The notes beneath the pieces are model-generated. The model was not told the DNA's origin. It worked only from the letters and a program-made list of their open reading frames with translations, and made no database searches. From the NCBI GenBank assembly GCA_017405785.1, contig JAFQZR010000006.1:1-64000 (forward strand): DNA of 64,000 nt. The letters run 5' to 3'. Origin of the DNA: Erysipelotrichaceae bacterium. GTDB taxonomy: Bacteria; Bacillota_I; Bacilli_A; Erysipelotrichales; Erysipelotrichaceae. The position numbers and the translations under genes are program-made. The first letter of the stretch is position 1. Each line of letters opens with the position of its first letter. Shown piece after piece: positions 1-23,111 of the stretch.

Positions 1-209
1 ATACATTGATTATTACAACAACAGACGTATACAGAAGAAAACAAAATGGATGCCTCCTGCGTTATTCAGGAGTACATCCATCTGTAATTCTGTGATTTAG
101 TCTGATTATTCAATATGTCCAGGATTCTGGGTACATATCAAATTAAACACTGTCTTTTGAATATATAATATTATTGTAAACAAATGCACATTGTTGGGAG
201 GTTCAGCAA
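1..209. other. Leading intergenic region with an imperfect hairpin
   Basis: No gene is seen here. An imperfect inverted repeat pairs 47-59 with 67-80 around a 7-base loop, with one internal mismatch. No T-run follows it on the + strand; an A-rich stretch precedes it, so it would look like a terminator only for leftward transcription, yet the genes to its right run rightward. It may be the 3' end of a gene left of the window, or a leader structure. A TATAAT hexamer at 164-169 is a possible -10 for the first operon, but I see no convincing -35. Confidence 0.35.
164..169 (+). promoter_or_regulatory. Possible -10 box of first operon
   Basis: TATAAT lies 40 bases before the start codon at 210. 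No good -35 hexamer stands 16-18 bases upstream, so this call rests on the -10 only. The ribosome site GGGAGG at 196-201 then lies 8 bases before the ATG. Confidence 0.3.
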
Positions 210-1019
210 ATGATAACTGCAGACATTCAAACGCAGGATAAGGTGAACGTAAAACATCTGGAAACAGAAACAGAAGAAATTCTTCCTGAAGGGATTGAAG
301 AGACTGGAGAAAAGGATCATATCACTAAAATCATAGGCATCGGTAAGGACGGAAAATCCATATTAGATATCCTTAAGGTAAAACATCTGAAAAAGACTCA
401 CAAAAAACACAGATACATTACGGTACAGCTGGACACTGATTTCAGTGATAGCGAATCTGATTATTCACAGTATGACCCAACCGCTTTTCAGAATTCTTAC
501 GACAGGTTTTTAAGCAGCCTGAGAGTTGAACAGCTGACTTCACAATGTGATGATCTGATCATTGTCAGCCTGCTGGCAGAACGGTCATTACCGGTAATTG
601 CTGCCATAGCTACATACTGCAGAGAGAATACGCTCCATCTGGCAGTATATGGTATAGTTGCTTCCACATTATCTGCTACAGATGCATACTGGATCAAAAT
701 GACAGAAGACTGCTTGGCTGACCGCAGAGATTTCTTCATTGGCAGCACTGAATCCGGTAAAAGCATTGCTCAGCTTCATGAAGAAATAGCTGATAAAATA
801 TACACTGATATCATCAACCAAGATCTGTTATACATGCTTGAAGCTATTTCAGATGACAATTATGAATCCGATTATCTTAACAGTGAAACATTGTCATCCT
901 TACAGGAGCTTCTTACCGATGAAGAAGAACTGCAGGAGAATGCAGAAAACGCTGTGACAGATGAAGTGAGTGAAGAAGACGAAGAAGACAACGACAACAG
1001 TATGCAGATAACATGGTAA
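210..1019 (+). CDS. Degenerate FtsZ-like protein (tentative)
   Basis: 269 residues. Residues about 37-75 read like the first Rossmann strand and loop of FtsZ (IIGIGKDGKSILD against the usual V-G-V-G-G-G-G-N), followed by a strand ending QLDTD where FtsZ has VNTD. Residues about 112-155 match the FtsZ segment around the tubulin signature (DDLIIVS, then PVIAAIATYCREN and a strand-like LHLAVYGIV), but GGGTGTG itself is absent and reads LLAERSLP. The C-terminal third is very acidic. If the likeness is real, the protein cannot bind GTP in the FtsZ manner. It opens an operon with a sigma-like and a SepF-like gene, and SepF is the classic FtsZ partner, which supports the reading. The alignment is by eye; an unrelated Rossmann protein is the alternative. 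Confidence 0.45.
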   Translation: MITADIQTQDKVNVKHLETETEEILPEGIEETGEKDHITKIIGIGKDGKSILDILKVKHLKKTHKKHRYITVQLDTDFSDSESDYSQYDPTAFQNSYDRFLSSLRVEQLTSQCDDLIIVSLLAERSLPVIAAIATYCRENTLHLAVYGIVASTLSATDAYWIKMTEDCLADRRDFFIGSTESGKSIAQLHEEIADKIYTDIINQDLLYMLEAISDDNYESDYLNSETLSSLQELLTDEEELQENAENAVTDEVSEEDEEDNDNSMQITW

Positions 1020-1059
1020 GTCATAAGTATAAAACATCGGTTGAAGAAAGGGCAGAAAA

Positions 1060-1998
1060 ATGGACAGTCTAAACACACTGAAGGACGAGATACTGAATAC
1101 CAATCCGGAAGACAGAAATCGCATGGATATCATCAGAAAGATATATGAAGAAAGAATTACTCCTAATGACTTTTTCGAATGGGCTTCAATTAATCAGATA
1201 ATCCCAACAGAAAGAAAACCTGTTAACTACGAACAGATCAATCGTATATTATCCTATCGCCTTTCAGACAACGACAAGCTTGTTATGGAACTGTATCTCA
1301 ATGAGATCAGACAGTATGAACCTCTCAACGAGGAAGAAACCGAAAACCTGTTCAAAAGCGATATGAGACAATATTTCACCGAACAGATCTGCAAGGGATA
1401 TCTCGGTGATGTCCTGCAAGAAGCAGTATATTTCAATTCAAATGATTTCATGGGAGAAATAGATAACATTGAAAACGCCAACATCGGTTTAATACAGGCC
1501 ATAAATCATTATGACGGAATCAATAAAGGCTACCGGTTCTATCCGTATATGTTATGGTGGGTTGATTATTCGATCTATACAAACTTGCAGATGACCAAAG
1601 AAGTCGTACTTCCGCCTGAGGGAATAGAACTGATCAAACAGATAAAGAAAAACAGGCATGACCTTTCCGAAGAACTCGGAAGAGAGCCTACTGACGAAGA
1701 ACTCGAAACGGCAGTAGAATCAAGTCTCAACAGAGAAACAGACGAGATAATCAGAGGGTATGGATTTGATGAAAACGTGATTGAACACGCTATTTATGAT
1801 AAGGACAGTCCTCTGTCGCAGAGAGAAAGAAGAGTATTGGAGCTGGTGAATACCATCTCAGATGGTAAAACCATTAATCTTAAGAGCGTAGCCCATGAAA
1901 TGATGGTAACAACCTTCAGAGTAAAGAAGATATTGGAGAAAATATACAAAAAACTGTCTGACACTTACAGAACAGAAACTGATAACAAGGATGTATAA
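1060..1998 (+). CDS. Divergent sigma-70-like protein
   Basis: 312 residues. The order of a primary-type sigma factor is visible: a region 1.2-like LYLNEIRQYEPLNEEE (about 83-98), region 2 with NIGLIQAINHYD and a WW pair (about 140-180), region 3 with LSEELGREPTDEEL (about 202-215), and a region 4 with a degenerate helix-turn-helix (about 250-300). The -10-reading helix, usually WWIRQAI, is WWVDYSI, so the residues expected to contact the promoter are changed. AAAGGG precedes the ATG. The gene starts 40 bases after the FtsZ-like gene and ends 16 bases before the SepF-like gene. It may be an alternative sigma factor, or a sigma-derived protein that no longer recognises a standard promoter. Confidence 0.7.
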   Translation: MDSLNTLKDEILNTNPEDRNRMDIIRKIYEERITPNDFFEWASINQIIPTERKPVNYEQINRILSYRLSDNDKLVMELYLNEIRQYEPLNEEETENLFKSDMRQYFTEQICKGYLGDVLQEAVYFNSNDFMGEIDNIENANIGLIQAINHYDGINKGYRFYPYMLWWVDYSIYTNLQMTKEVVLPPEGIELIKQIKKNRHDLSEELGREPTDEELETAVESSLNRETDEIIRGYGFDENVIEHAIYDKDSPLSQRERRVLELVNTISDGKTINLKSVAHEMMVTTFRVKKILEKIYKKLSDTYRTETDNKDV

Positions 1999-2014
1999 GG
2001 AAGAAGCGCAGTAA

Positions 2015-2344
2015 ATGAACCATTATCGAGGAAAAACCGAAGATCAAACCGGAAGTATCATATCCATATTTGAATTAAAGTCACCTGAAGAGGCTGATGA
2101 CATTGCAGATCTGTTAGTGTGTAACAGAGTAGTTATTGTCAACTACCGTAGAATGTCTGAAACTGATGTTCATGACATTAAGACTTTCCTGAAAGGGGTA
2201 CTGTACGCAAAAGGAAGCATTATTGAGATAAATAATGAGGTTGTCGTATATTCACCCGATGTCAAGGAAGTCATCGAAGACAATAAAGAAGAACCGTTAA
2301 GCTTAAGAACTCAGATGATACTGAAATCCCTTAAAGATTACTGA
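2015..2344 (+). CDS. SepF-like cell division protein, short form
   Basis: 109 residues against about 150 in Bacillus SepF. The SepF (DUF552) core is clear: a strand, EEADDIADLL, VVIVNYRRM, a helix ending FLKGVLYAKG, then a final strand EVVVYSP. In known SepF this fold dimerises and binds the FtsZ C-terminal tail, while an N-terminal amphipathic helix binds membrane. Here the N-terminus is only about 14 polar residues, so the membrane helix is missing. The ribosome site AAGGAAG overlaps the stop codon of the sigma-like gene, implying coupled translation. I expect another, standard SepF elsewhere in the genome and regard this as a paralogue. Confidence 0.75.
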   Translation: MNHYRGKTEDQTGSIISIFELKSPEEADDIADLLVCNRVVIVNYRRMSETDVHDIKTFLKGVLYAKGSIIEINNEVVVYSPDVKEVIEDNKEEPLSLRTQMILKSLKDY

Positions 2345-2354
2345 TCTTTTTAGA

Positions 2355-2390
2355 ACTTATATGTCTGATCATACATATAAGTCTTTTTTC
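2355..2390 (+). terminator. Rho-independent terminator of first operon
   Basis: A perfect 10-base stem (2355-2364 with 2373-2382) closes an 8-base loop and is followed by a run of T from 2384. It lies 10 bases after the SepF-like stop codon. Confidence 0.85.
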
Positions 2391-2439: not shown

Positions 2440-3030
2440 ATGGCATATGATGGATCTGGAAGTATGAAAGATTATTATACAAAAAAACTGGCTGAGTACT
2501 GCTATAATTTATGGGAAACAACTGTAAAAGAGCTTGGCACAGAAAATGAAACAACCGCAAAATACTATATGCAGGCTGTACAACATTATCTGGATGCAGG
2601 ATGCTATGAAGAAGTTGTTAAATATGGTCCTAGGGGATTAGAAACCTGTATTAAAATGTACGGCCTCAACAGTGATTGGTCTGTAGCGTATGCTTTTTTC
2701 ATTACCGAAGCACTGTATCATTTGAGAAGATTTGATGAAGCGCTAAAACAAGCCCAGTATGCTTATTCAATCTGCCTCAATCTTTATGGTGAAAAACACT
2801 GGAAAACCGTTACTATTCTGCAGGAAATAGCTCAGATCTATGATTTACTTGATAATCCTCAGGAAGCATTAAAAACACGGGAATACAATTATCCGTTAAT
2901 GATAGCGGTATACGGTGAAAAGCATAAGGATACTAAAAGTGCCCTTAAGTTTATTAATTCTTTGAAGCACAGACTGGGAATAGAAACCCAAAAAACCGGC
3001 ATATTTGGATTATTTAAAAAGAATAAGTAA
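2440..3030 (+). CDS. TPR-repeat protein, kinesin-light-chain type
   Basis: 196 residues with no signal peptide. At least three tetratricopeptide-like helix pairs span about 30-165, with the kinesin-light-chain style spacing seen in TPR_12 proteins (for example FDEALKQAQYAYSICLNLYG, then PQEALKTREYNYPLMIAVYG). Such proteins are protein-binding scaffolds; no catalytic motif is visible. The C-terminus is a short basic, aromatic tail GIFGLFKKNK that resembles the end of the next gene product. The two genes probably share one transcript and may work together. Confidence 0.65.
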   Translation: MAYDGSGSMKDYYTKKLAEYCYNLWETTVKELGTENETTAKYYMQAVQHYLDAGCYEEVVKYGPRGLETCIKMYGLNSDWSVAYAFFITEALYHLRRFDEALKQAQYAYSICLNLYGEKHWKTVTILQEIAQIYDLLDNPQEALKTREYNYPLMIAVYGEKHKDTKSALKFINSLKHRLGIETQKTGIFGLFKKNK

Positions 3031-3052: not shown

Positions 3053-3649
3053 ATGGAAAAATACGTACAGCTGCTTTATGACAGAATAAAAGATGATAAA
3101 GACAGAGTCATGCGATTGATTATGATTATGGATGGAGCAATCAATGAAATGCATAACAACGGCATCTTCAGTCAATTGCCTCTGGATGTGCAGGAAAGAG
3201 TTCACTCTGAAGATCCTGAGGAACGCATAACAGTTAAATCTTCAATCGCTAAAAGCCTCGCCTATAACAGTTTTATTACTTCATCACAACCATTAAGGCT
3301 TAAAAGCGGAGATATCGCCCATATGATAGGAGTGAAATTCAATCAGACATTCATAAACTCTATCGCTCTATGTATCCAGGGAGGTCTGGAAGGGCTCTAT
3401 CAGAACGGAATCTATAAGCACTGTGAGGATGAGATAATGCAGTACTACATCCAGACGGATGCCCATGGAGAAGACTATAAATCTTTCAGAAGGAAGATGA
3501 TGGAACTGGAAAGCCTGTATGACAATTTCCAGATTAACTTTATTCCAGCCAATTTCTTTGAAAAGAAAGAAACTGCCCCTGTTACCAAAACTACTGAGGA
3601 GAAGAAAGAAAAGAAAGGCCTGTTCGCAAAACTGTTTTCGAAGAAATAA
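3053..3649 (+). CDS. Protein of unknown function with basic C-terminal tail
   Basis: 198 residues, not recognised. It is mostly helical, with no signal peptide or membrane segment. A lysine/glutamate-rich linker (about 165-188) leads to the tail GLFAKLFSKK, an amphipathic basic segment that could touch the membrane or a partner. AAGGAGAG gives a strong ribosome site 23 bases after the TPR gene, so the pair is likely co-transcribed and ends at the shared terminator at 3680. Confidence 0.55.
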   Translation: MEKYVQLLYDRIKDDKDRVMRLIMIMDGAINEMHNNGIFSQLPLDVQERVHSEDPEERITVKSSIAKSLAYNSFITSSQPLRLKSGDIAHMIGVKFNQTFINSIALCIQGGLEGLYQNGIYKHCEDEIMQYYIQTDAHGEDYKSFRRKMMELESLYDNFQINFIPANFFEKKETAPVTKTTEEKKEKKGLFAKLFSKK

Positions 3650-3726: not shown

Positions 3727-6700
3727 TTATTCGAATATCTTGCCCTGACTCCAGTCAGTTACAGTCATCTTATCATCCAGATCATAGATCTTTCTGATGT
3801 CGCTGTTGGCAATCAATCCGGCACCGCCGCAGACAACACCCTTAGTGATCTTAGCGTTCTGGACATACTTTTCTGCTGCTTCTGTTCTGCCTGATGCTGT
3901 CAGGATGACAGGAGCCTTCAGTTCATAAGCCAGAGGACCTGCGCATAATCCGTCAGGGAAGTTCTGAGCATATGCAAATACTGCAGTATCAGGATTCTCG
4001 AAGAACTTTTCAGCAATCAGAGTAGATGTTTCATATCTGCTTGCACCTGCTATACGCTCAGTCTTGACGATTGCGTTGATTTCTTTCTCAACAGCTGCTG
4101 TTACAGCTTTGTCACCACCGAGGATATAGTATTTGTTCTTTCTGTGGCCCTTAATGAATGTCAGCTGGTCTTCAGTCAGCTTATCCTTAACCAGCAGGAT
4201 TGCCTTGCCTGATGCTGATGCACTTAAGCTGTCGGCGAAGTTAGCACCGGTACAGATCAGGATATCGTCTTCCCAGACATCGGCTTCATCAAGAATCAGC
4301 AGGTTAGTAGCGTATCTGTTACTGCCGGCCAGTCTCTTGACAGTATAGCTGCCTAAGCCGTTTTCCATCTTGGAACTTACAGCCCGTGTACCACCGAGGA
4401 TATAAACCGTACCGCCCTTATGGACGTTCTCCTTGATGTAAGCTGTAACGCTGTCAATGTTGGCATCGTTGACGATCAGGATCGGAGAACTTGTCTTAGC
4501 TGCCAGATATGAACCGGCTAAAGCATCAGCGAAGTTGACACCGCTGGCAACGATGACATTGTCAAACTTGGTCTTTTCGAGTTCTGCCTTATAGGCATCT
4601 GATAGCCGTAATGATGTCTTATATCTGTTAGTACCGAAGATACGGAACAGGTTGGAGTTCAGAACTGAAACCTTGAACTTACTTCTGGCAACAACTGTTG
4701 TATCAGTTGCCGGTGCAGTTGCGACGATTTCAGTTGAACCTACTGACATAGGTACCAGTGTGCCGTCTTCCTTGATAATGACGACCTTAGTATCGTTGGA
4801 TACATACTCAACATCTGTAGTTCCGTCGCTGGCATTGCCATAGATGTTCTGGCTTTCACCGTTCAGTAACAGTGAAATGTCTCTGGATGCAGCTATTGGT
4901 GTAGCCTTCTGGACTACATAGATGGCTGATGGGATCCAGTTGCCCTTATCGAAGTTACGGCCCATGAAGATGATCTTGTCATCATAGACTCTTACATAGT
5001 AACCCTGGGAACCTTCCTTATATACACCGGAGAGTACATCGTAGCCGTTCCACAGATAGCTTCCTGCTGCGGTGTTCAGTGCTACAGGGTGATTCTCATT
5101 ACCCGGATACATGTTACTGTTGGAATCCATGTGCCAGTGGCTGTGACCATTGAAGAATATGATCTGGTCATACTTCTGCATGATGTTCAGCAGTCTGCCT
5201 TCATCATCGATACCGTTCCAGTTTTCACCAGGCAGTGAACCTGATACGGTGTTATAGAATGACTGGTGCAGGAATACGAATACCGGCTTATCCGGATCTT
5301 CTTCCGTGCACTTAGCCATTACTGAATCAAACCAGTCAAGCTGTTCCTGTGAAGGGTTGGCGTGTAAGCCCGGACCTTCCTGGCCCAGATATACAAAGTG
5401 ATATCCGGCAACAACTTCATCATAGTAGATGTTTTCCGGCTGCTCGATGGTATCGTTGAATATCTTGACATATCTCTGGAACCGCTTGTTAGGGTTGCCC
5501 TTTAACCAGTCGTGGTTACCTGTTGCCATGTGGATCTTAGGCAGGTTTCCGTTACCGGCATTTACAGCTTCGATGTACAGGTTATACATCATCTTGAATT
5601 CATCTTCACTGCCGGTATTCGCAATGTCGCCGTTGATGAAGATACCCTGGCTGTTAGGGCTGTTGGCCTTGATGTCTTCAAGGATCATCTTGAAGTGAGT
5701 ATTTGACAGAGTAACTTCACCGGTTGCTCCCTCAGGAGTTGTTAAGTGAACGTCACTCATGATCTGGAATTCAATGATTGGTTCTTCGATTGTGTATGTG
5801 CAGTTAGCCGGTAAGTCAACACTGACATAATCATCTGATAAGGCACTGCCGTTTGAACCATAGGCGATAAGCTTCTTAGCGCCTTCCGGAATGATGGTAT
5901 GAGTTACCATCTTATGGTCAGTTACCGTACCGGTAAGCTTGAACATCTGTAATGAATCATAGCCTTCCAGCTTGTCGCCATTGGCATCAGCCCAGTACAT
6001 GACGCAGTCTGAAGCATCAGACTTGCCTCTGTTAACGGAAACGATACCGTTGGCGAAGCCATCAGTTGCATTGTTAAGAGTGTACTTGATGCTCTGAAGA
6101 CCCTGTACGGCACCTTCTTCGATCGTGATGTAAACTGTCTCAACAGCAGTATAACCGCCGTCCTTGAACAAAATTACCTTATAATCACCCGGATGCAGGC
6201 TTTCTCTTTCCCAATGCTGGTTCTGTAATGCATAAGGCTTACCTGAAATATGGGTTCCGTCATTTACGTAATACCAGAAAATGGATGTGATGTTTCCCGG
6301 AGTCTGATCAGCTTCATAAATGCCGACCCAGCTTCCGTTATCCGGACCTGTCGCACTGACAAATACCGGTTCCTTATAGGCATATGTTGTCTTGCTGAGT
6401 TTGATGGAGTAATCTGAGCTGCCATAGTTGTTGGCAGAAGTGATCTTGATCTCCTTGACCTTGTCGTTTTTACCATTCAGTAATACAACTTTATAATCAC
6501 CGGCAGGCAGGTTCTTATCATTTGTACGGCTGGCAGCGATATCACCGTAAGCCAGTATATCGCACTGTGCACCGTTAGCCGGAGTTACACCATTGGTGGA
6601 TAAGCCAATTGTATATGAATAGATAGGTTCGACTTCATTGACGTCATCTGACTTCTTGAACAGACCGACTCTGTTGCCGTTTCTGCCGCTGGCAGTTACC

Positions 6701-8760
6701 AGGATGGCTTCTCCGCCAGCATATGAATCCTTATCAGTCCGGATAGCAGCTGTTAGCTCCTCGCCATCATCCAGAGGTCTGGTCATGATCTTGGCAGGAT
6801 CCCAGTATGCATCCCAGTTGAAGTGTGATTCATTTGTAACAACATCCATGAACTCTCTGTAGCTTGTAGCATTCGCAAACTGTTCTTCGCAGATGTACTT
6901 CAGATATTTATTTGCGTACTCAAAGCTCAGTTCAGTGTCAATGTATTTCCAGATAGTCCAGGATGGCTTCTTGGTTCCGTCATGGGCGATCAGACCTAAG
7001 GCATATGAACCTGGCTGGTCGTTTTCTTCGAAGTAGTCTACCTCATCAATGCACGGCAGCATGGCTGCTCTGTAATAGTACATGGCGATGGTAGCTGCCT
7101 GTTCATTGATTGACTCCTGATATTCTTCATCACTTACCGTACCCTGTACCTTGTTACAGATACTTGTTTCGGTAAGAATGACATTACGCATTTCTGTTCC
7201 CTTATATTTGTTTTCAGCTAAATCGAAGTACTGCTGATATAATTCAAGGTTAGCGGCTGTGATCCAAGGAGATGTCTTGTAGTTACCGTTAATGGACTTC
7301 CAGTTGGCATTCAGTCTGTCAGCATGTAAGTCGGTAACACAAGGGTTGCTGGAAGTAGTGCCAATTGGATATGGGTGAACTGTGATACCCCAGTTGAAAT
7401 CGCCGCGTGGTGCGTCATACTTCTTCATCCATTCAAGGATATCAAGAGGTGCCCAGGCGAAGAATCTCTTGGAAGTATTAGGGTTCTCACCATATGATTC
7501 CAGACAGCTTTCTGCCCAGTTATGAGTTAATGAAATGTAAACTTGGTTGTTTTTGTTATACTTCTGAACTGCTGCATTGGAGAGTCTGAAGTAACGGGCA
7601 AATTCTTCCATGAATATGTTAAAATCATACTTGTGGAACTTGCCATCAGACCCCTTTGCTCTTGACTGAATCAGGAACCAGTCATAAGCATAGTCAATTT
7701 CGTTAGCTATTACCCAGCGGTCTACCAGGCCGGAATCAGCTGATTTTGAATATCTGTCAGCCAGGAATTCCATGCAGGCGATGACATACTTGGCACCTAA
7801 CCGGTTAGAAGTATTAACACCTAAAGTTACTGTATCAGTACCCTTGGTATCATATCTTAAGGCTTCAGGATACTCCTTATTACCTACAGTTGTCTGCTGC
7901 CATACGATACATACGAATGTAACGTTAATTCCAGCCTGTGAGAAAGGAATAGTCAGCTGGTCCTGCAGACCAATTGTCTGAGTATCAAAGTAGAAGATTT
8001 CACCGTTGGATTCAAATGTAACAGTATTTGCTCTCTTACTGTTATCGATTGGATTACCGTTGGCATCTTCGTTTGCCAGAATCAAGGTTCCCAGGTCACA
8101 GTTGATGACTGTTCTGCCGATGCCCATCTCCTTGGCAGTATTTATAGTTGAGAAGTCCTCGCAGATAAGGCCTTTCTTGGTGTTTGTCTCAAAAGGCTTA
8201 ATATCTCTGTATGATTCAATCTCTGATGCATATACAGGACCCGCAATGATATTGCCGTCTTTTACCAGATAGAACTTACGGTACAGGTTATCATAACCGC
8301 TGCCGTGTACATAACGGTTGAATTCATATGTAGCGACTGAACCGCACTTGTATTCACCGATATCAGTTGCACTGTAGCCATTACCTGTACTTAAGCCCTT
8401 CATTGTATCTTTTGGATGATAGTCATTCGGGTCATAGCTGTAAATGTTAGCTGTTCCGCTTCCGCCAAGGTCATTTACTTCAATGGTGACCTTGCTCTTG
8501 GAAACGCTGACCTTCATGCCGACATCCTTATCCCGTGAAGTGTTGAATGTTCTGATGGTGACCTCGTCACCGGCACTGGTCTTGCCATAAGCAGTGTCTA
8601 TAACACCGGACATCTTATGGGTTATGCTTGCTTCAGCCGTTTCTACTGCATACTGTTCAATGTCGTTAGCCTGCGTTCCCTGCAAGCTGCCGAATGAAAG
8701 AACAACGCAACTAAAAACAGCCAGCGCTGCAATGAAGACGTTTCTTAATTGTACTTTCAT
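3727..8760 (-). CDS. Secreted glycosidase-like/metallophosphoesterase protein with CWB2 repeats
   Basis: 1677 residues. Order: signal peptide (1 to about 31); a beta-rich part and a DUF5722-type TIM-barrel-like region (about 190-650) in which ANEIDY (Glu354) and LTETS (Glu531) sit where clan GH-A glycosidases carry the acid/base and nucleophile; two Ig-like modules with WVGIYE or VGLFKK cores (about 670-890); a calcineurin-type phosphoesterase (about 998-1290) with Asp1003 and His1005, GNHD ending at Asp1084, and GHSH from His1206; a Big_2-like module (about 1293-1370); three CWB2 repeats (about 1372-1670) with NRYxTS and NFADALAGS motifs. The metal ligands look intact. AAAGGAG at 8769-8775 sets the start. 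The protein should be exported and held non-covalently to wall polymer. The substrate is unknown. Confidence 0.85.
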   Translation of the reverse strand: MKVQLRNVFIAALAVFSCVVLSFGSLQGTQANDIEQYAVETAEASITHKMSGVIDTAYGKTSAGDEVTIRTFNTSRDKDVGMKVSVSKSKVTIEVNDLGGSGTANIYSYDPNDYHPKDTMKGLSTGNGYSATDIGEYKCGSVATYEFNRYVHGSGYDNLYRKFYLVKDGNIIAGPVYASEIESYRDIKPFETNTKKGLICEDFSTINTAKEMGIGRTVINCDLGTLILANEDANGNPIDNSKRANTVTFESNGEIFYFDTQTIGLQDQLTIPFSQAGINVTFVCIVWQQTTVGNKEYPEALRYDTKGTDTVTLGVNTSNRLGAKYVIACMEFLADRYSKSADSGLVDRWVIANEIDYAYDWFLIQSRAKGSDGKFHKYDFNIFMEEFARYFRLSNAAVQKYNKNNQVYISLTHNWAESCLESYGENPNTSKRFFAWAPLDILEWMKKYDAPRGDFNWGITVHPYPIGTTSSNPCVTDLHADRLNANWKSINGNYKTSPWITAANLELYQQYFDLAENKYKGTEMRNVILTETSICNKVQGTVSDEEYQESINEQAATIAMYYYRAAMLPCIDEVDYFEENDQPGSYALGLIAHDGTKKPSWTIWKYIDTELSFEYANKYLKYICEEQFANATSYREFMDVVTNESHFNWDAYWDPAKIMTRPLDDGEELTAAIRTDKDSYAGGEAILVTASGRNGNRVGLFKKSDDVNEVEPIYSYTIGLSTNGVTPANGAQCDILAYGDIAASRTNDKNLPAGDYKVVLLNGKNDKVKEIKITSANNYGSSDYSIKLSKTTYAYKEPVFVSATGPDNGSWVGIYEADQTPGNITSIFWYYVNDGTHISGKPYALQNQHWERESLHPGDYKVILFKDGGYTAVETVYITIEEGAVQGLQSIKYTLNNATDGFANGIVSVNRGKSDASDCVMYWADANGDKLEGYDSLQMFKLTGTVTDHKMVTHTIIPEGAKKLIAYGSNGSALSDDYVSVDLPANCTYTIEEPIIEFQIMSDVHLTTPEGATGEVTLSNTHFKMILEDIKANSPNSQGIFINGDIANTGSEDEFKMMYNLYIEAVNAGNGNLPKIHMATGNHDWLKGNPNKRFQRYVKIFNDTIEQPENIYYDEVVAGYHFVYLGQEGPGLHANPSQEQLDWFDSVMAKCTEEDPDKPVFVFLHQSFYNTVSGSLPGENWNGIDDEGRLLNIMQKYDQIIFFNGHSHWHMDSNSNMYPGNENHPVALNTAAGSYLWNGYDVLSGVYKEGSQGYYVRVYDDKIIFMGRNFDKGNWIPSAIYVVQKATPIAASRDISLLLNGESQNIYGNASDGTTDVEYVSNDTKVVIIKEDGTLVPMSVGSTEIVATAPATDTTVVARSKFKVSVLNSNLFRIFGTNRYKTSLRLSDAYKAELEKTKFDNVIVASGVNFADALAGSYLAAKTSSPILIVNDANIDSVTAYIKENVHKGGTVYILGGTRAVSSKMENGLGSYTVKRLAGSNRYATNLLILDEADVWEDDILICTGANFADSLSASASGKAILLVKDKLTEDQLTFIKGHRKNKYYILGGDKAVTAAVEKEINAIVKTERIAGASRYETSTLIAEKFFENPDTAVFAYAQNFPDGLCAGPLAYELKAPVILTASGRTEAAEKYVQNAKITKGVVCGGAGLIANSDIRKIYDLDDKMTVTDWSQGKIFE

Positions 8761-8903: not shown

Positions 8904-11900
8904 TTACTTCTTTACGTATACTTCGACAGGAGTCTTAGGATCACGTCCGAAGATTTCGTTGATCAGCGTATCTTTCAGAGCGTTTGTACCGCCAAGTACA
9001 ACACCCTTTTCGATGTGCTTCTTTTCAACAAGCTTCTTAGCATAGTCAGCTCTGCCGTCCTTGACCAGGATTACAGGTGCACCGATCTGGTATGCCAGAG
9101 CGCCACCGCATAAGCCGTCAGGGAAGTTATCGCCAACAGCGATTACTAAGGTATCAGCATCCTTTAAGAACTCTTCAGCAATCTTAACTGAAGTTTCATA
9201 TCTGTTAGCACCGTTGAGACGCTTGATTGTGCCATATTCGCCCAGTTCACCTTCAACAGTCTTGTTAACAGCGTTGGTTCCGCCTAAGATGTAGATCTTC
9301 TTGTCGTTGTAATTGCTTAAGAAGTCTTTCTGTTCAGCGGTCAGCTTATCCTTGACTAACAGAACAGGTAAGCCTGATGCTGAAGCACTTAAGCTGTCTG
9401 CGAAGTTAGTTCCTGTTGATACGAGGATAGCATTACCCTGGATTCCTGCTTCTTTCAGGATCTCGAGGTTAGTGCCGTATCTGTTAGAACCGGCAAGTCT
9501 CTTGACTGTGAATCCTGCCTTCTTCAGATCGCTTTCGAACTTAGGAGCAACTGCCTTGTCACCGCCGAGGATGTAGATCAATCCGCCCTTGGCAACATGT
9601 TCTTTCAGGTATTTCTCTACTGTAGCAGCCTTGTTATTATCATCAATTAAGATGATCGGAGCATTCTTAACAGCTGCCAGGTATGAACCTGCTAAGGCAT
9701 CTGCGAAGTTAGACCCGCATGCTAATACTACTGTATCAAGTTCACTCTTATGAGTCTTTTCCATGAAGACATCAGCTGCAGTTAAGGCAGTTAAGTATCT
9801 GTTATCACCGGATGCTCTGAACAGAGGAGCGTCAGAAGCAACCCGTGTATAAGTATACTGGCCACCGCATTCCTTACATGTGTAAGTAGTGACATCACCA
9901 TCAACTACACCTTCATCGAATTCGCAGTTGACGGTTTCTGTATGGCTTGGATCGTTCTTACATGTACGTGTATGAGTCTTGGCTTCTTCGCCGTCATATA
10001 CCCATTCACCCCAGTCATGTCCTAATGCCGGAATTGGAACGTTTTCAGTTGTTCCATCAGTATATGTAATGAGCTTACTGCCTGCTTCAGTACAAGTAGG
10101 TTCAATTGTTACTTCTTCTTTTGCAATCTCCTTAGTTACTTCAACCCAGAAGAATTCTCTCATATCTTCATATCCGCCTGTAGCATATACAACCATTGTG
10201 TACTTGCCAGGCTTGCTGATGTAGTCATTAACTGATACAGCACCATCAACATCTCTGAGATACCAGAACTTATTGGCTGTTAATGAAGAGAAATTATACT
10301 CTTTTTCATATTCACCTTCATAGATACCAAACCATGCTCCATATGGATCTCCATCAACAGTAGCTTTGAACTGAACATCCTTTTTTAATGGAACAGTGTA
10401 TTCGAACTTTTCTTCCTCTGCAGGATCTTTTCCATCAAATTCGAATGCAATATCACCACAGGCAAGTGTTTCTTCGGTCAGTGTAATAGTCAGATGAGCG
10501 ACTCTCTTATCATATCCGCCATCAGCCAGTAAATACAGCTCCAGATTACCAGCCTGATTCAATAACCAGTCGTATCCATTTGTCGTACCTGATCCGCCTT
10601 CTTCTGGACCATAGATCTTTGTCAGCATGTCTAATCCTTCTTCAGGTGTACCCATGTTCTTGACATAGTGCCATCTAACAGAAATATCAGCAGCAGGTGC
10701 TGTACCTGCACCATACATGCCAACCCATGCATTATTTGGATCTAATCCTGCATAATCAGCAATAACACTTAAATCAACGTGACAAATGATAGGTTCAAAC
10801 TGTTTAAACTCAGTCTTATCTACCCAGAAGAACTTGTCTTCGTAACTGCCATTGCAAACTTCACATGTATGCACTATTGAACCACCAACAATACCCATAT
10901 TTTCGAATGTGCATGCTTCGCTTATTCTATCTTTACAACGTGAGCATTCTTTGTAATGCTCATGCTTTTCTTCATCAAAGGTCCATGTCTTACTATAATC
11001 ATGTCCTAAAGCAGCAACTATTGTATCCTGTTCATCAATTTCGTGTTCTCCGTTTGCGTCTGAGAAATAGAAACCACAAACACTACACTGCCAGTATTCA
11101 ATTGTTCCTGCACTTGTACATGTCCGTTCAACCGCTTCATGATGTACAAGCTTGTGATCATGCGGCTCAACATCTCTTTCTTCTACTTCGCCACACCTCT
11201 GACATGTTCTCTTCTGATGTGTCTGTGTTGTATATGACCATGTAGTCCAGTCATGTCCTAAAGCTGCTGTTTCAACATCAACAGTTGTGCTTAATACTTC
11301 AACACCATTTACCGTAGCTATTCCTTCAACACTATTTACCGTAAATGACAAAGGATATGTATCAATACCGGTTTTTGTACATGTAGGAGCAGTTTTTTCA
11401 GTTTTATTACCAACAACTGCATCATATGTCGTTGTCTTGGTATCATCATCGTAACGTGTTAACTTTACGGTTGCTGTTGTGTGGTCATCGTCTAAATTCC
11501 ATACGATGTGTTCAGCATCGTCATAATAAGTCAGTAATAAATTAAACTTACCCTGAATGCCTAAGTTCGTATTAGTGTCGCCTTTTTCCATTGGCTCAAT
11601 CAGATATACTCTATACTTTTTACCTGCCTCGGGTTTTGCAACACCTTCTTTAATTGCTAAATCCAGAATATCAATAGGTCCTGATATTTCTGATAATGGG
11701 ACATCAATATACCATTTCGTTAGCTTCTGGTGATATGGTGCTTTCTCATCGGCATCACATAATCTTATCGATGCATTAGGGTTAGGGCTGACCGCAGTCA
11801 CCATGATAGGTTCATTGTATTTATAGTCAACCCACTGTCCAACTTCTCCTTTGTCCAGTCTCAGTGAAGAAACTATGGCACTTGGATTAATTGTAACTGT

Positions 11901-14306
11901 CTTTCTTGCAACAACATTATAGTAGTTGTCGGTTCCGGTCAGATACATTAATACAATGTCATATTCTCCGCCTTCAGTATAATCTGGAATCCTTCCGCTG
12001 GAATTATCAGTACTTCTGATATCAACCGGCTTAGTCAAATCAATGCTGTTATCATACCAGTACATTGACGGATTTGATCCAGCAGGAGTTGCACCCTTTG
12101 GATACATTGCAACCCATACATATCCTGTGTCGCAATCATATTCGCTGATTGTAACATATAATGGGTCTTCATAACCATAAACTTCTTTATCTGTAGAAAT
12201 AATGTGTGTTTCAACTACATTACCACAAACTGTACATGTCTTAGTAACATCATTACCATTAACTACAACCTGATATGTACAATCACCGGCATCAATAATG
12301 TCGCCGCATACTGAGCACTCTTTGTGATGTGTATCATTTTCACAAATATAATTTCCGTATTTGTGGCCTTGTGCTTTAATAACAACGTCTTCTGCATTGA
12401 TTTCATGTTCGCCTGCAGCATCTGAGAAATAGAAACCGCAAACAGTACACTGATAGTATTCAATATTACCATCTGTTGTACATGTTACATCAACTGCATC
12501 GTGATGCACCATTGCATGATCGTGAGGTTCAACATCTCTTTCTTCTACATTTCCACATACTGTACAAGTTCTCTTCTGATGTGTTGTAGATGTATATTCC
12601 CACTCTGACCATTTGTGGCCTGCTGCTGGTGTTACTACTTCTTCAACCTTGTTAAATGACGTGAAACCATTAACAGTGACCAGCGTGTTTTCTTCTGTAA
12701 ACGCGAATGATAATGGATATTTATCTAATCCGGTTGCTGTACACGTTGGAGCTGTTTCAGTTGTTTTTTCTCCGACAACAGCATCAAAAGTCTTTGTCTT
12801 AGTAGCGTCATCTACACGCTTGAATGTAATTGTGGCTGTTTCTGTTTCTGCATCAAAATTCCAGATAACGTTCGTATTTGTATCGTCGTAAGTTTCAGCT
12901 ACAAAGAAGGACTGAATACATGGTAATTCTGTCTCCGTATTAGTTTCAATATCATAGCCATATTCTGAATCGTTATCCTTGAATAATACGAATTTATAGC
13001 GTCCAGGTGCAAGGAAGTCATTTTCTGTATCGTCATAGTAATTTACAGGACTTGCAAAGTCTTTTAGCGGAATCCTTTCAATTGGATCATCGTCTGGAAT
13101 GACTGCGCTATATGAATACAACCCAATCCAGGCACCATTTACAACAGAAGCTGAACTATAAGTAAGTGTTAATTCCTGACCATATTTAAATGTTCTCTGC
13201 TTACCATTATCTTCCGGATTTGTCAGTGCATTACTGTAATCAAGCCGCAGAGAAATAGGAGTATCTGATTTAACAGTAAAAGTCTTCGGTGTTGTTGCAT
13301 ATGTATAAGCACCGTTAACTCCTTCGTAAATTATTGCTACCTTATAATCTCCTGGAGGAAGGGTTTCAGCAGAAACAACTCCTAATCTTTCGTTACATTT
13401 GCCACCGACTGATGCTGCATTGAAAATGTTAACTTCTGATCCGTCAGGATAATACCAATAAAATGACTGTGCATCGACTCTGTCGCTTTCTTTTAATAAT
13501 GAAACCCATCCGCCAGTATCTGTAGCAGCAGTAACAAGGATAGGTTCACCAACTGTATACTCATCTTTATCAGTACGAATATAGTTAGTCTCTACTGGGG
13601 ATTCAATTGATATTGTCTTTATCTCAACAACATTGTAATAATCATTTCCGCCAGTATGGTACATTAAGAAAATATCAAATTTCCCTGTACCAGGGTCTCT
13701 TCCCTGTGAAATACCATCGAGGATATTATTCTCTGAATATAAATCGTGAGAATCAGTCTCAAGATATCTATATGAAGCCAACTCTGGAGTACCTGGTGTT
13801 TCATACTGTGAAAACATGGCAATCCAAACATAACCATCATATTGGTAGTCTTCGCTTAATGTGACATAAATAGGTTCTCCTGGCGCATATACCTCTTTAT
13901 TAGTGCTTAAATATCCATTAGGATTCCCTTCAATTTCAATTTCAATATGATCTACTTCACCGTCATTATCAAACAATACAACATAGAATTTCCCTCCCCG
14001 GTTAATCTTATGCTGATGCTGTACGTTGGTAGAAAGTATATTAGTTGCTTCATGAGTCCGGTAATACCAACTAGATGATGCACCGCTAATTTCCCCTCTG
14101 TATAATCCAACCCATGCACCTGAAGGTATGTCGTAGTCCGCACTTACAGTTACCAGTACTTCTTCTCCATAAGAATATGAAGACTTGTTGGTAGACAAAT
14201 AGTGTGTTTCAGCCTTAGCCAAACCATCAGGAACAATTACGGTTAACGACATAAAAACAACTAATAAAACCTTCATTAGTTGTTTCAGTTTCTTAGAAAT
14301 ATCCAT
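8904..14306 (-). CDS. Giant secreted Ig-like/CxxC-module protein with CWB2 repeats
   Basis: About 1800 residues. Of two nearby ATG codons I prefer 14306: AAAGGGAG ends one base before the ATG at 14315, too close, but 10 bases before 14306. After a signal peptide (1 to about 31) come repeated Ig-like modules (YGEEVLVTVSAD, then WVGLYRG type) to about 460. Two long duplicated blocks (CxxC parts near 560-680 and 1017-1135) carry CTVCG, CSVCG and HDH motifs like small zinc-binding or disulfide modules. More Ig-like modules and a further CxxC block follow to about 1490, then three CWB2 repeats (about 1494-1790). No enzyme motif is seen. It is probably an adhesin or matrix protein bound to wall polymer. 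Confidence 0.8.
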   Translation of the reverse strand: MDISKKLKQLMKVLLVVFMSLTVIVPDGLAKAETHYLSTNKSSYSYGEEVLVTVSADYDIPSGAWVGLYRGEISGASSSWYYRTHEATNILSTNVQHQHKINRGGKFYVVLFDNDGEVDHIEIEIEGNPNGYLSTNKEVYAPGEPIYVTLSEDYQYDGYVWIAMFSQYETPGTPELASYRYLETDSHDLYSENNILDGISQGRDPGTGKFDIFLMYHTGGNDYYNVVEIKTISIESPVETNYIRTDKDEYTVGEPILVTAATDTGGWVSLLKESDRVDAQSFYWYYPDGSEVNIFNAASVGGKCNERLGVVSAETLPPGDYKVAIIYEGVNGAYTYATTPKTFTVKSDTPISLRLDYSNALTNPEDNGKQRTFKYGQELTLTYSSASVVNGAWIGLYSYSAVIPDDDPIERIPLKDFASPVNYYDDTENDFLAPGRYKFVLFKDNDSEYGYDIETNTETELPCIQSFFVAETYDDTNTNVIWNFDAETETATITFKRVDDATKTKTFDAVVGEKTTETAPTCTATGLDKYPLSFAFTEENTLVTVNGFTSFNKVEEVVTPAAGHKWSEWEYTSTTHQKRTCTVCGNVEERDVEPHDHAMVHHDAVDVTCTTDGNIEYYQCTVCGFYFSDAAGEHEINAEDVVIKAQGHKYGNYICENDTHHKECSVCGDIIDAGDCTYQVVVNGNDVTKTCTVCGNVVETHIISTDKEVYGYEDPLYVTISEYDCDTGYVWVAMYPKGATPAGSNPSMYWYDNSIDLTKPVDIRSTDNSSGRIPDYTEGGEYDIVLMYLTGTDNYYNVVARKTVTINPSAIVSSLRLDKGEVGQWVDYKYNEPIMVTAVSPNPNASIRLCDADEKAPYHQKLTKWYIDVPLSEISGPIDILDLAIKEGVAKPEAGKKYRVYLIEPMEKGDTNTNLGIQGKFNLLLTYYDDAEHIVWNLDDDHTTATVKLTRYDDDTKTTTYDAVVGNKTEKTAPTCTKTGIDTYPLSFTVNSVEGIATVNGVEVLSTTVDVETAALGHDWTTWSYTTQTHQKRTCQRCGEVEERDVEPHDHKLVHHEAVERTCTSAGTIEYWQCSVCGFYFSDANGEHEIDEQDTIVAALGHDYSKTWTFDEEKHEHYKECSRCKDRISEACTFENMGIVGGSIVHTCEVCNGSYEDKFFWVDKTEFKQFEPIICHVDLSVIADYAGLDPNNAWVGMYGAGTAPAADISVRWHYVKNMGTPEEGLDMLTKIYGPEEGGSGTTNGYDWLLNQAGNLELYLLADGGYDKRVAHLTITLTEETLACGDIAFEFDGKDPAEEEKFEYTVPLKKDVQFKATVDGDPYGAWFGIYEGEYEKEYNFSSLTANKFWYLRDVDGAVSVNDYISKPGKYTMVVYATGGYEDMREFFWVEVTKEIAKEEVTIEPTCTEAGSKLITYTDGTTENVPIPALGHDWGEWVYDGEEAKTHTRTCKNDPSHTETVNCEFDEGVVDGDVTTYTCKECGGQYTYTRVASDAPLFRASGDNRYLTALTAADVFMEKTHKSELDTVVLACGSNFADALAGSYLAAVKNAPIILIDDNNKAATVEKYLKEHVAKGGLIYILGGDKAVAPKFESDLKKAGFTVKRLAGSNRYGTNLEILKEAGIQGNAILVSTGTNFADSLSASASGLPVLLVKDKLTAEQKDFLSNYNDKKIYILGGTNAVNKTVEGELGEYGTIKRLNGANRYETSVKIAEEFLKDADTLVIAVGDNFPDGLCGGALAYQIGAPVILVKDGRADYAKKLVEKKHIEKGVVLGGTNALKDTLINEIFGRDPKTPVEVYVKK

Positions 14307-14384
14307 ATTTCCCATGCTCCCTTTCTATTTTCTGTTTCAACTAATAGACATAAATACATAATTTTGTCTATGAATGTCTCTTTT

Positions 14385-14487: not shown

Positions 14488-17208
14488 TTAGAAAACAATT
14501 ATGAACAATATTATCAGTATCACAAATAACAGAACTATATAAATTGGTTTGACACTGTTTTCTTCGTTTTTACCGTTGATCTTTTCTTCAGCTTCATTAA
14601 AGTACTTTTCTGCAGATGAACTTGAAAACTTCTTGTTCTTCGGTTTGTCTGTATACTTAGGGGTTTCTGTTGCTGGAGATTCTTTTTGTTCAGAGTATCC
14701 CTCTTTTGCGATCTGTTCATCTATTATCTGAATCATTTTATCGGTGCGGTTTATTCGTTCTATGTATTTTGGTTGTTTTGTAACACTAAACATATAGCCG
14801 AGTACTGATTTGTACTTTTGCAGATACTCTTTTCTTTCTGTTGTTAACAAACCAGGGAAAACGCCCAAGGCATAATACGAAATAGCCAGATCTTCCTTTG
14901 CGTTCAGTGAATGTGTTTTTTCTTCCAGCTCTTTACGGATAGCAAGGCTCTTAACATAGAAGCCTTTTGCGTTCATGTAAAAACCTTCTTTGGTACATAC
15001 ATCACCCATGGCACAGTATATGCTGGCTGTCAGCATTTTCATGTCATCTTGATTAACAGTACCATTACTCAGTCTATTAACGGTATTCAGTCCTTCCTGA
15101 TACCATTTATGGGCATTCTGATAATCCTTGGCTTCATAATATATATTTCCCAGATTCACACATCTTTTAATATAATTTGTCTTAGACTCATAATCCTCGA
15201 TTTCTTTCATCAGGGTACTATCTATGGAGATACACTTTTCCAGCATCGCTATGGCATATGATGTGTTTCCTTCTTTCAAGTACGTGATTCCCAGGCTGTT
15301 GTAAATACTGTCCAGTATTTTCCTGTTTCCAATCGTACTGACGTCCTGAACCAGTTGTTCCCGGATATCCCTGCTTTTTATAAAACAGTCTTTGGCATCA
15401 GTCAGATTGCCTTCTTCATAATATACTTTTCCTGTATTCAGATATATTGCTGCCAGCAGATTTCGGCACTCAACCTTTCTGTTACTGTTAATCAGATTCA
15501 GTGTTTCGTTAAGTGCCTTTTCGTACTGCTCTCTTGCCTTCTGAGGCTGATGAGCAGCCAAATAGATTCCACCCAGATTTATATCAGCATCGATCAGATT
15601 AAGGATGGAATACAGCTGATTGGTTGATTTGACCACTTTCTCCTCAATCTGTATATACCTTGAATAATAGTCTTCGGCATCGTTCAGATTTCCCTCACTA
15701 TAACAGATTAAACCCAGCTGACCGTAATCTGACCCGACATTATTCAGAGCATCGGTTGATGATGTCGCTCTCAGCACGGCTTCATCTATAGCCAGGCTTT
15801 TCTCCAACCATTCCCTGGCTTCTATATAGTTACCTTCCAGATAACAGATACTGCCTATCCGATGATAACCGGAAGCGATGTAGGTTTTTCCTCTGCCGTA
15901 TGACTGATCAAATATCTGTCCATATGTCGACATTTCATTATATATCTCTTTCGCATGAGAATACTGTCCGCTCTGTCTCACGTAGTCACCAAGTATGTTC
16001 AGATTCTCTATTAGCTCTTTCAGTGTTATCAGAGTCTTCTTTTCCGTGTATGACGCTTTAAGCATCTCTACGTATTCACTCTGCCATTTAATGGCCGTAC
16101 TGATATCCCTTCTGACACCTTCTCCGTTCCGGTAAATTTCCGCAAGCTTCTTAACAGCTTCCGGTACTTTTGCTTCAGCGGCCATGGTAATGAGATTTAA
16201 AGCCTTTTTCTTATTAACTTCCACATAGATTCCGGACAGATATGCCAGACCGATAAGATATTGATGACCCGGAGCGTTATTCTGTTTTACTCCTTTGGAA
16301 AAAAGCTGTTTCTTAAGCCTTCTGTCCAGTTCCGCATAATCTTCAGCCTTAACCGGATCCTCGATTCCGTCAAATCTTTCCCTGAGTGTTTCTCTGTCAG
16401 TTTCAATTGCTTCAATAGGTAATACCGGCTTATTATTCTGTAACGCTGCAGGGTATTCCTTTTCCTTAATGTAGTTTTCTCTGTTTCCGGATTTTTCATT
16501 AAGACTCGGGGTTACCACCAATGCCATGAGGCTGCTTTTAATGATATATTCCAGGATTTCATTATTGAAGTTTTCACCGGGAGTAAGAAACTCATCGTAC
16601 CAGATTGCCACATCTCTCATAAAATCAGCTTTATGAATATTGCTCATGATCTGTTTTGCGTATTCTCTGTCTTTCTTTCGATAGGACAGGAAAACAAATG
16701 TGTCAAATGCTTTCTGGATCTTTTTTATCATTTCATCACTGAGCAGTACGGAATCAAGATATCTTTTCAGCTTTTCCTCATATGAAACCGCTGTTACATC
16801 TGTTTTTGAAGAATTCCTGTCGAGATACTGCAGAGAACCGCATATCTCATTGAATCTCTTTCCGATGTTTTCTTCCTGAAGAAGAGGCAGAACAGGTATG
16901 TGATTGTCAACCGCATACCTGAATTCAACATTCCTGGCACTGTTGTTTTTTTCAATAAAATCAGAAGTAACCGCAACGACAACAAGCTGCATTTCTGACA
17001 GAGTGAAATACAGCTCTTCTTTGTCTGGAATTCCTTCCTTAGGATCATAGTAATATATCACAGCGTTCGGCTGATAAGACAGGATCTCGTTGCTGACAGG
17101 CTCAAATAACCTGTCAAAGTCACCTGGATAACAGCAGAAATATACCTTTGCCTTTCTTCCCGGATTCACTGTCCGGGGTTTAGTCTTTAAAAACAGCTTC
17201 TCTGACAT
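14488..17208 (-). CDS. Double-TIR, Sel1/TPR, tail-anchored protein
   Basis: 906 residues. Two TIR-like domains stand in tandem: residues 20-110 (KVYFCCYPGDFDR, ending IPVLPLL) and 169-267 (FVFLSYRKKDREYAKQI, ending KPVLPIE). Glu95 (in NVEFRYA) and Glu249 or Glu251 (in YIKEKEY) sit near the place of the catalytic Glu of NAD-cleaving TIRs. Next come Sel1-like repeats (about 312-375, with NGEGVRRDISTAIKW), many TPR units (about 440-830), a charged linker, and one C-terminal membrane helix (about 886-904) ending IIVF. That gives a cytoplasmic signalling head anchored by its tail. It starts 20 bases after the Rossmann/RyR gene, the last of three in one transcript. TIR domains may cleave NAD or only recruit partners; which applies is not shown by the sequence. 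Confidence 0.8.
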   Translation of the reverse strand: MSEKLFLKTKPRTVNPGRKAKVYFCCYPGDFDRLFEPVSNEILSYQPNAVIYYYDPKEGIPDKEELYFTLSEMQLVVVAVTSDFIEKNNSARNVEFRYAVDNHIPVLPLLQEENIGKRFNEICGSLQYLDRNSSKTDVTAVSYEEKLKRYLDSVLLSDEMIKKIQKAFDTFVFLSYRKKDREYAKQIMSNIHKADFMRDVAIWYDEFLTPGENFNNEILEYIIKSSLMALVVTPSLNEKSGNRENYIKEKEYPAALQNNKPVLPIEAIETDRETLRERFDGIEDPVKAEDYAELDRRLKKQLFSKGVKQNNAPGHQYLIGLAYLSGIYVEVNKKKALNLITMAAEAKVPEAVKKLAEIYRNGEGVRRDISTAIKWQSEYVEMLKASYTEKKTLITLKELIENLNILGDYVRQSGQYSHAKEIYNEMSTYGQIFDQSYGRGKTYIASGYHRIGSICYLEGNYIEAREWLEKSLAIDEAVLRATSSTDALNNVGSDYGQLGLICYSEGNLNDAEDYYSRYIQIEEKVVKSTNQLYSILNLIDADINLGGIYLAAHQPQKAREQYEKALNETLNLINSNRKVECRNLLAAIYLNTGKVYYEEGNLTDAKDCFIKSRDIREQLVQDVSTIGNRKILDSIYNSLGITYLKEGNTSYAIAMLEKCISIDSTLMKEIEDYESKTNYIKRCVNLGNIYYEAKDYQNAHKWYQEGLNTVNRLSNGTVNQDDMKMLTASIYCAMGDVCTKEGFYMNAKGFYVKSLAIRKELEEKTHSLNAKEDLAISYYALGVFPGLLTTERKEYLQKYKSVLGYMFSVTKQPKYIERINRTDKMIQIIDEQIAKEGYSEQKESPATETPKYTDKPKNKKFSSSSAEKYFNEAEEKINGKNEENSVKPIYIVLLFVILIILFIIVF

Positions 17209-22900: not shown

Positions 22901-23111
22901 TATCTAAAGCTCTTTCAATGTCGCCGGAAAGATCACTGGAAATCGGCAGTTCATCCTGATCTCTGAATACTCTGCCAGGTGTTTTTTCTCCGTTTTTCCT
23001 TAAAGCCTTAGGAATACTAAAGTGCTCAATTGCGTGATGCAACTTGATTGCCACGCCTTTATCAAGCGGCAGATGTCTGTAACTTATAAATGCCTTGTAT
23101 TTTACTTCCAT
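19911..23111 (-). CDS. TIR/transmembrane/beta-propeller protein
   Basis: 1066 residues. An N-terminal TIR domain (1 to about 170) opens KAFISYRH, contains RVFRDQDELP and a WxxxE motif (Trp88 to Glu92); Glu92 matches the catalytic Glu of plant and bacterial TIR NADases. One membrane helix (about 187-205) follows, then a helical stretch with GDRLGAIALAIEALP (about 235-250), then a long beta-propeller of WD40/PQQ type (about 270-1010) with strands such as GIVSLWNSDT and DGSVKW. The TIR should lie inside and the propeller outside the cell. I see no clear Shine-Dalgarno site before the ATG. First gene of the three-gene cluster. Architectures of this kind are known in gut Bacillota but unassigned. 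Confidence 0.8.
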   Translation of the reverse strand: MEVKYKAFISYRHLPLDKGVAIKLHHAIEHFSIPKALRKNGEKTPGRVFRDQDELPISSDLSGDIERALDNSEFLIVICSKETKNSKWVLREISYFLEHHDRSHVLAVLVEGTPEESFPKELTDEYSEEGKYIRSVEPLAANIVADSSAKRNALFRTEKLRIMAALIGCTYDSLYKREQRYVIRKVATAAAVVLLIAAGFIGVLLNRNAMITKNYENTLRSQSTYLANASQALLKEGDRLGAIALAIEALPSEGNDRPLVPCAQRALDEAVNAYLSPSSVNGRDLQATGIISPDDKNMKFEVEQESGLVCVITRNGIVSLWNSDTCTQLWKYETGKDYSGVDVQFIDSKSLILEIYDKVLCLNTADGSVKWQALYKDIVSTDSSFSMFECIQLSENKQRIYAFDEFSMIVLDSSDGSVLSKTMLPVLEEEGEPVSYYLSKNKTFVSDDEKFVFLFFFYNADYSWDDSAKNGICVLNAENLEPVFTTTDVVYGTLGDAFLHHDNLLFIALNIYNDDMYISDLNNGELGMQTNETKLLICLDFNSGTIKWTSRHTYSFLSRDSITYWTLPDGTEVVIYAYANHVDIIKADDGGIVSQAEFFSVVRNVNAMDNGVQVICQDGKIGYIWFENMLRWFYEKQLKEGVNDCKKNSYYYWVLDNNDVLTRYSVIAADPSWIDIPIENREESYTSGDYIINDDGFVMFSSYDLKVICGNKDGLRTLYLPTVSVEDSYGYSTYRRYSLKALEGNQRLFSWTFDDSHGVLYLDILTGEFREVTCDTELRERDIFRKENGDGWYLLAIKQESFLDDVELHFLELDDEMNIKREMTFEDKVSDSYYDIHSFYDGNGKLYIHYEDTDKTYQLDINSLTVKELPDDISEALNESVDNFYLEENVYFDTNRDHIIIRKDESTLLIYKNAVDLVKTLDATSSAIVSVWFSSDNQYMFTLETDANLRRYSTDDWSLLSCKSLHSIDNISIYEDIMWQDTDKDFFCLNVGDCMHLIDKKEYDVLDVMSYCYGYMEKEDFFLCREGSYDFGGFPRHTTESLIEYGKEILNGWELSSEQKYEYGLD

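Follow-up and report, generated by a model that had tools for sequence, protein, structure and literature searches.

An intact three-gene operon encoding a diverged sigma-70-family protein, a SepF core domain, and a candidate FtsZ relative in an Erysipelotrichaceae bacterium

Three adjacent genes of a gut-type bacterium, referred to here as p1, p2, and p3, form an intact operon at positions 210 to 2344 on the forward strand of contig JAFQZR010000006.1. Sequence comparison identifies p2 with certainty as an RpoD-type relative of the sigma-70 family and p3, with the same certainty, as a SepF core domain, and p1 is a candidate relative of FtsZ. As a tentative reading of the whole, to which we give somewhat less than even confidence, the operon would encode paralogues of three core proteins, all strongly diverged and with a soluble regulatory role. 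The contig begins with the window, that is, the whole stretch of 64,000 nucleotides analyzed here, so the operon sits at a contig end; the assembly is 1.96 Mb and 97% complete. The features of the operon are as follows.

191 to 209, forward strand: strong ribosome-binding site TTGTTGGGAGGTTCAGCAA, preceding p1
210 to 1019, forward strand: p1, an acidic alpha/beta protein of 269 amino acids
1060 to 1998, forward strand: p2, an RpoD-type sigma-70-family protein of 312 amino acids in which region 3 is shortened and the promoter-reading residues are changed
2015 to 2344, forward strand: p3, a SepF core domain of 109 amino acids without the N-terminal membrane helix and linker
2354 to 2388, forward strand: intrinsic-terminator-like hairpin followed by a T-run, closing the operon (-9.5 kcal/mol, z -2.4)

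The three open reading frames have exact coordinates, lie on the same strand, and contain no internal stops. Each is preceded by a plausible purine-rich ribosome-binding site (GGGAGG for p1, AAAGGG for p2, and AAGGAAG for p3), and the intergenic gaps are 40 nt between p1 and p2 and 16 nt between p2 and p3. Because the gaps are short, ribosome-binding sites are in place, and a hairpin with a T-run closes the set, the genes are assigned to one operon, and the original prediction was right on this point. A consensus scan missed the hairpin because its stem is AT-rich. Upstream, a TATAAT lies within an AT-rich stretch about 30 nt 5' of the p1 ribosome-binding site, and a promoter scan gave no scored promoter there. 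The codon-position GC pattern of p1 to p3 resembles that of working genes, and the intact reading frames, ribosome-binding sites, and terminator argue against decay of the operon. The operon genes have a GC content of 0.37 to 0.40, versus about 0.45 for the capsule-type and MutS genes further in. The operon is part of an AT-rich accessory stretch; genes for large surface proteins and for proteins with TIR domains follow downstream of it, as does a polysaccharide locus. Such surroundings fit a variable island and do not in themselves prove a function.

Several neighboring genes were also noted. Behind the hairpin, and starting about 95 nt past p3, are two further forward-strand genes, p4 (2440 to 3030), which carries TPR repeats according to Pfam, and p5 (3053 to 3649), which belongs to no family. 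The latter is nearly unique to the source genome, its homologue search giving one weak match only. Both proteins end in short tails rich in lysine and phenylalanine, GIFGLFKKNK and GLFAKLFSKK, respectively, which are possibly amphipathic and recall membrane-targeting helices. Two giant neighboring secreted proteins of 1677 and 1803 amino acids are encoded on the reverse strand at 3727 to 8760 and 8904 to 14315; they share similar C-terminal repeats with the appearance of cell-wall-binding type 2 repeats, and the one at 3727 to 8760 seemingly has a metallophosphoesterase-like part. Also on the reverse strand, 12 to 21 kb downstream of the operon, are two large TIR-domain proteins (14488 to 17208 and 19911 to 23111) that may be defense genes. 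One combines a TIR domain with many TPR/Sel1 repeats, the other is a ThsB-like TIR protein, and a family-less protein of 887 amino acids lies between them.

The identity of p2 is clear from several comparisons. It matches the NCBIfam model RpoD_Cterm at 9.6e-20 with 71 bits, a score that does not reach the curated cutoff of 354, and SigA1 in the PDB at 8.6e-19. Regions 2, the start of 3, and 4 are recognizable, and most of region 3 is deleted. When p2 was compared with 47 sigma factors of relatives, it kept 43 of 108 near-invariant positions (40%), the other 65 being changed or missing. The Trp dyad, several melting aromatics, and D403 are retained. The residues aligned to core contacts Q406 and E407 are replaced, and so are all of those aligned to E. 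coli Q437, T440, R584, E585, R588, and Q589; we take Q437 and T440 to read the -10 element and the latter four to read the -35 element. On this evidence, p2 should not read housekeeping promoters in the manner of RpoD. The genome encodes its own normal RpoD on another contig (C29). Second RpoD-like sigma genes also occur in relatives. In the same genus, such a gene lies beside rpoD and the methyltransferase gene that follows downstream, whereas relatives of genus g31 have it between rpmE and prfA (loci L067, L068, L079, L080, and L118 to L125 for the two arrangements together). The source genome has no second sigma gene next to its rpoD.

The match of p3 to the Pfam SepF family (PF04472) exceeds the cutoff (6.1e-11, 42.8 bits against 27), and SepF core structures in the PDB are matched at 1.2e-5. 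SepF normally has an N-terminal amphipathic membrane helix and a linker (PMC7118173). In p3 the core starts at residue 16 with no helix upstream, so that both parts are missing, and there is a C-terminal extension. With the B. subtilis numbering anchored on the G109K structure 3zii, p3 retains Gly109 and has a valine at Phe126, the FtsZ contact. A change of Phe126 to serine impairs FtsZ binding in B. subtilis (PMC5717166). Two ordinary SepF proteins of the family carry an isoleucine at this position, so binding of p3 to FtsZ, although doubtful, would still be possible. The genome's own normal, full-length SepF is on another contig (C6), where a HicA-like and HicB-like pair lies directly 5' of sepF (locus L003, 668 to 1262). 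SepF-like genes encoding 88 to 105 amino acids without the membrane helix were seen in three other genomes (L064 and L077, of genus g64, and L078). The short genes of g64 are near a GGDEF gene, and none is linked to p1-like genes. A phage record of 1710 bp labeled Staphylococcus phage (OR850334.1) contains a sepF-like stretch at 1241 to 1501 that is probably bacterial DNA.

The first protein is the hardest to place. p1 is strongly acidic (pI 4.3) and gave no family match in Pfam or NCBIfam, no sequence match in the PDB, and nothing significant in PHROGs. Against a local HMM of 31 FtsZ proteins it scored 0.6 bits, below 89 shuffled copies, and in pairwise and hhalign comparisons with FtsZ its scores ranked among those of real decoys. 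A different picture came from an ordered-motif test, in which each structural element of FtsZ is an ungapped block, the blocks keep their order but may lie any distance apart, and 1435 windows of real proteins from the same loci serve as decoys. With blocks for all elements, which were picked after the alignment had been seen and were preceded by seven-block versions, p1 scored 98.5 (z 6.3), and 0 of the 1435 decoy windows did as well. The same procedure gave 95.1 for PhuZ of phiKZ and 94.1 for PhuZ of 201phi2-1, both of them known but very distant tubulins. When block borders were random, 34 of the 1435 decoys reached the raw score of p1 and 4 reached its z, with PhuZ still above all decoys; an earlier version with contiguous blocks had 20 of 900 decoys at or above the z of p1. 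The FtsZ-like motifs of p1, all encoded on the forward strand, are as follows.

TKIIGIGKDGKSILDIL, forward strand: aligns with S1-T1-H1
CDDLIIVSLL, forward strand: aligns with S4
LPVIAAIATYCR, forward strand: aligns with H4
LAVYGIVASTL, forward strand: aligns with S5

The original prediction had called for an FtsZ/tubulin fold in p1, and on this the answers are divided, hhalign being negative and the two structure models (pLDDT ~42) pointing in different directions. The full-length single-sequence model (pLDDT 43) alternates strictly between beta strands and alpha helices and closes with a helix of 29 residues. Its best 36 VIA rows are all tubulin or FtsZ, with Z up to 10.0 versus 5.9 for the best other row, and at this pLDDT its best three Foldseek matches are PhuZ-type tubulins. 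Trimming of p1 was meant to raise confidence; the trimmed model was worse (pLDDT 41) and did not reproduce the tubulin ranking, with STAS/RsbS first at Z 8.7 and FtsZ and PhuZ at 5.9. Together, the motif test and the low-confidence model suggest, but do not prove, a relationship to FtsZ, and we consider it probable that p1 is related to the tubulin/FtsZ type. Its functional sites are far from the usual ones. The T4-loop site reads LLAERSLP, not GGGTGTG, whose absence had been claimed and is borne out, and the T1-loop site is GKDGKS without the glycine-rich GGGxN. Past residue 214 the protein is short and acidic, with neither a T7 NxDxxD nor a C-terminal polymerization domain. It ends in DNDNSMQITW, compared with SFDTPSFFKDR in the genome's own FtsZ, and the SepF-binding peptide is missing. 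With the GTP loops and the T7 loop missing, as well as the C-terminal half and the SepF-binding peptide, p1 is not classed as an FtsZ. The three proteins had been described as altered copies of FtsZ, a primary sigma factor, and SepF; the latter two assignments stand on their profile matches, and the first is likely but unproven, no profile matching p1.

Protein searches found no credible homologue of p1 in 118 close, 273 family, and 395 class genomes, same-genus species included, and there was no match in GTDB contigs, IMG/VR viral contigs, plasmids, or phages. Two hits were rejected as spurious: at class level, a match at 8.6e-4 to a sugar kinase of the PfkB type (1-phosphofructokinase-like), and at family level, a match to a 43-amino-acid frame with stops. 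Searches with p2 and p3 elsewhere recovered only ordinary RpoD/sigma and SepF genes; in plasmids and phages, p3 gave single SepF matches only and p2 only ordinary sigma factors. The neighborhoods of the relatives' secondary sigma genes and short SepF genes (three genomes) contained no p1-like gene. Conservation of the gene order in relatives had been set beforehand as a point on which the prediction could fail, and no second copy of p1-p2-p3 was found in the 273 family genomes. Because p1 is an orphan, the missing gene order reflects a lack of relatives and not a lost order.

A normal FtsZ is present in the genome besides p1. The original prediction considered relatives of FtsZ and SepF in one operon to be unlikely by chance, and this argument is weakened by the frequent occurrence of ftsZ and sepF as close neighbors in bacteria (PMC8178401). 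Indeed, in one relative (locus L037) the two are directly adjacent, ftsZ ending at 1329 and sepF starting at 1333. Because this neighborhood is common, an FtsZ/SepF-like pair can come simply from an old duplicated division cluster, which could be the source of the p1/p3 neighborhood.

It is possible, though doubtful, that p1 is an unrelated alpha/beta orphan, Rossmann-like or STAS-like. The operon would then combine a SepF-fold protein with a sigma factor and its acidic partner (e.g., a protein like an anti-sigma factor or an anti-sigma antagonist), and the set would be unconnected to FtsZ. Standard sequence methods give no FtsZ match for p1, the trimmed model resembles the STAS proteins RsbS and SpoIIAA, and the strongly acidic p1 adjoins the sigma gene. 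However, no decoy equaled p1 in the ordered-motif test, the full-length model ranks tubulins far above the rest, and beta-alpha alternation with a 29-residue helix is a closer fit to the N-domain of tubulins than to a STAS domain. It is very unlikely that the genes are what is left of a duplicated division cluster being lost under relaxed constraint, their reading frames open by chance. The extreme divergence (the p2 tip branch is 2.55 versus a median of 0.05 in the tree) would suit such an origin, as would the restriction to one genome and the location in AT-rich accessory DNA at the end of a contig. The three intact reading frames with their ribosome-binding sites and terminator, and the codon-position GC pattern, speak against it.

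The altered copies might also act as decoys in a dominant-negative module for growth control that interferes with the host's FtsZ, SepF, and RNA polymerase, for instance when the cell is stressed or attacked by phages. All three would be copies of hub proteins without anchoring or catalytic parts, and TIR-domain genes are encoded downstream. In C. glutamicum, the SepF core suffices to bundle FtsZ (PMC7118173), and overproduced SepF blocks division in B. subtilis (PMC5717166). However, overproduction of B. subtilis SepF L7D, which does not bind the membrane, has no effect (PMC5717166). As p3 has neither the membrane helix nor the FtsZ-contact residue Phe126, the harmlessness of a membrane-deficient SepF there weakens the case for a decoy role. 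Nor does any anti-phage family fit, the best PADLOC results being the sigma part of MzaA for p2 (2.9e-6, its sole match) and JetA for p1 (0.003). Across the operon, PHROGs and PADLOC yielded nothing beyond weak hits and sigma matches of a generic kind. On balance we regard a decoy role as unlikely. The original prediction had raised the idea of a division-like or positioning system that resembles FtsZ and SepF, works without GTP, and has a sigma factor of its own. FtsZ-like and SepF-like proteins do share this operon, and FtsZ and SepF are known to bind each other (PMC7118173). However, p1 has no SepF-bound C-terminal peptide, polymerization half, or T7 motif; p3 has neither the membrane helix nor Phe126; and the gene order was absent from the other genomes searched. 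Such a system is not supported, and we consider it highly improbable.

In the soluble regulatory reading that we tentatively prefer, p2 would be a specialized sigma-70-family protein of RpoD-type descent, p3 a soluble SepF-core dimer, and p1 most likely a divergent relative of the FtsZ/tubulin-type GTPase domain that has lost GTP binding. We infer that p1 and p3 may bind p2 as soluble partners, or alternatively the FtsZ or SepF of the host, and that the operon would regulate transcription, possibly tied to division state, while forming no ring itself. Because p3 has no anchor and p1 has neither GTP-binding nor the usual polymerization parts, a soluble complex that modulates p2, or senses host FtsZ or SepF, appears likelier than a ring. 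A more specific version, in which an FtsZ-type pseudo-GTPase and an anchor-less SepF control a re-specialized sigma factor as a three-protein module, linking a cytoskeletal-type complex directly to transcription, seems to us quite unlikely. Should p1 prove to be an FtsZ relative that works without GTP, together with a SepF core and a sigma factor, division proteins would have been reused outside division, and a tubulin-like protein might be directly connected to promoter choice. On a modest reading, the operon represents extreme yet intact divergence of three core proteins within one transcription unit.

Among known systems, p1 resembles FtsZ in the strand and helix motif order of the GTPase domain and, as predicted by the model, in a topology that includes a long core helix; unlike FtsZ, it has no GGGxN T1, GGGTGTG T4, or T7 NxDxxD, no C-terminal domain, and no SepF-binding peptide, and FtsZ profiles miss it. 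PhuZ provides the best Foldseek matches of the full-length p1 model and a comparable all-elements block score. However, p1 has no sequence match to phage families and an accessory chromosomal location, and the structural matches depend on a model of pLDDT 43. Compared with RpoD/SigA, p2 has lost most of region 3, has the promoter-reading residues of regions 2.4 and 4.2 replaced, and keeps 40% of the near-invariant positions, whereas regions 2, the start of 3, and 4 are recognizable and the Trp dyad is present. Finally, p3 differs from SepF in having no membrane helix or linker, a valine for Phe126, and a C-terminal extension, but it shares the core domain, matching PF04472 and the B. subtilis SepF structures 3zih and 8hzt, with Gly109 kept.
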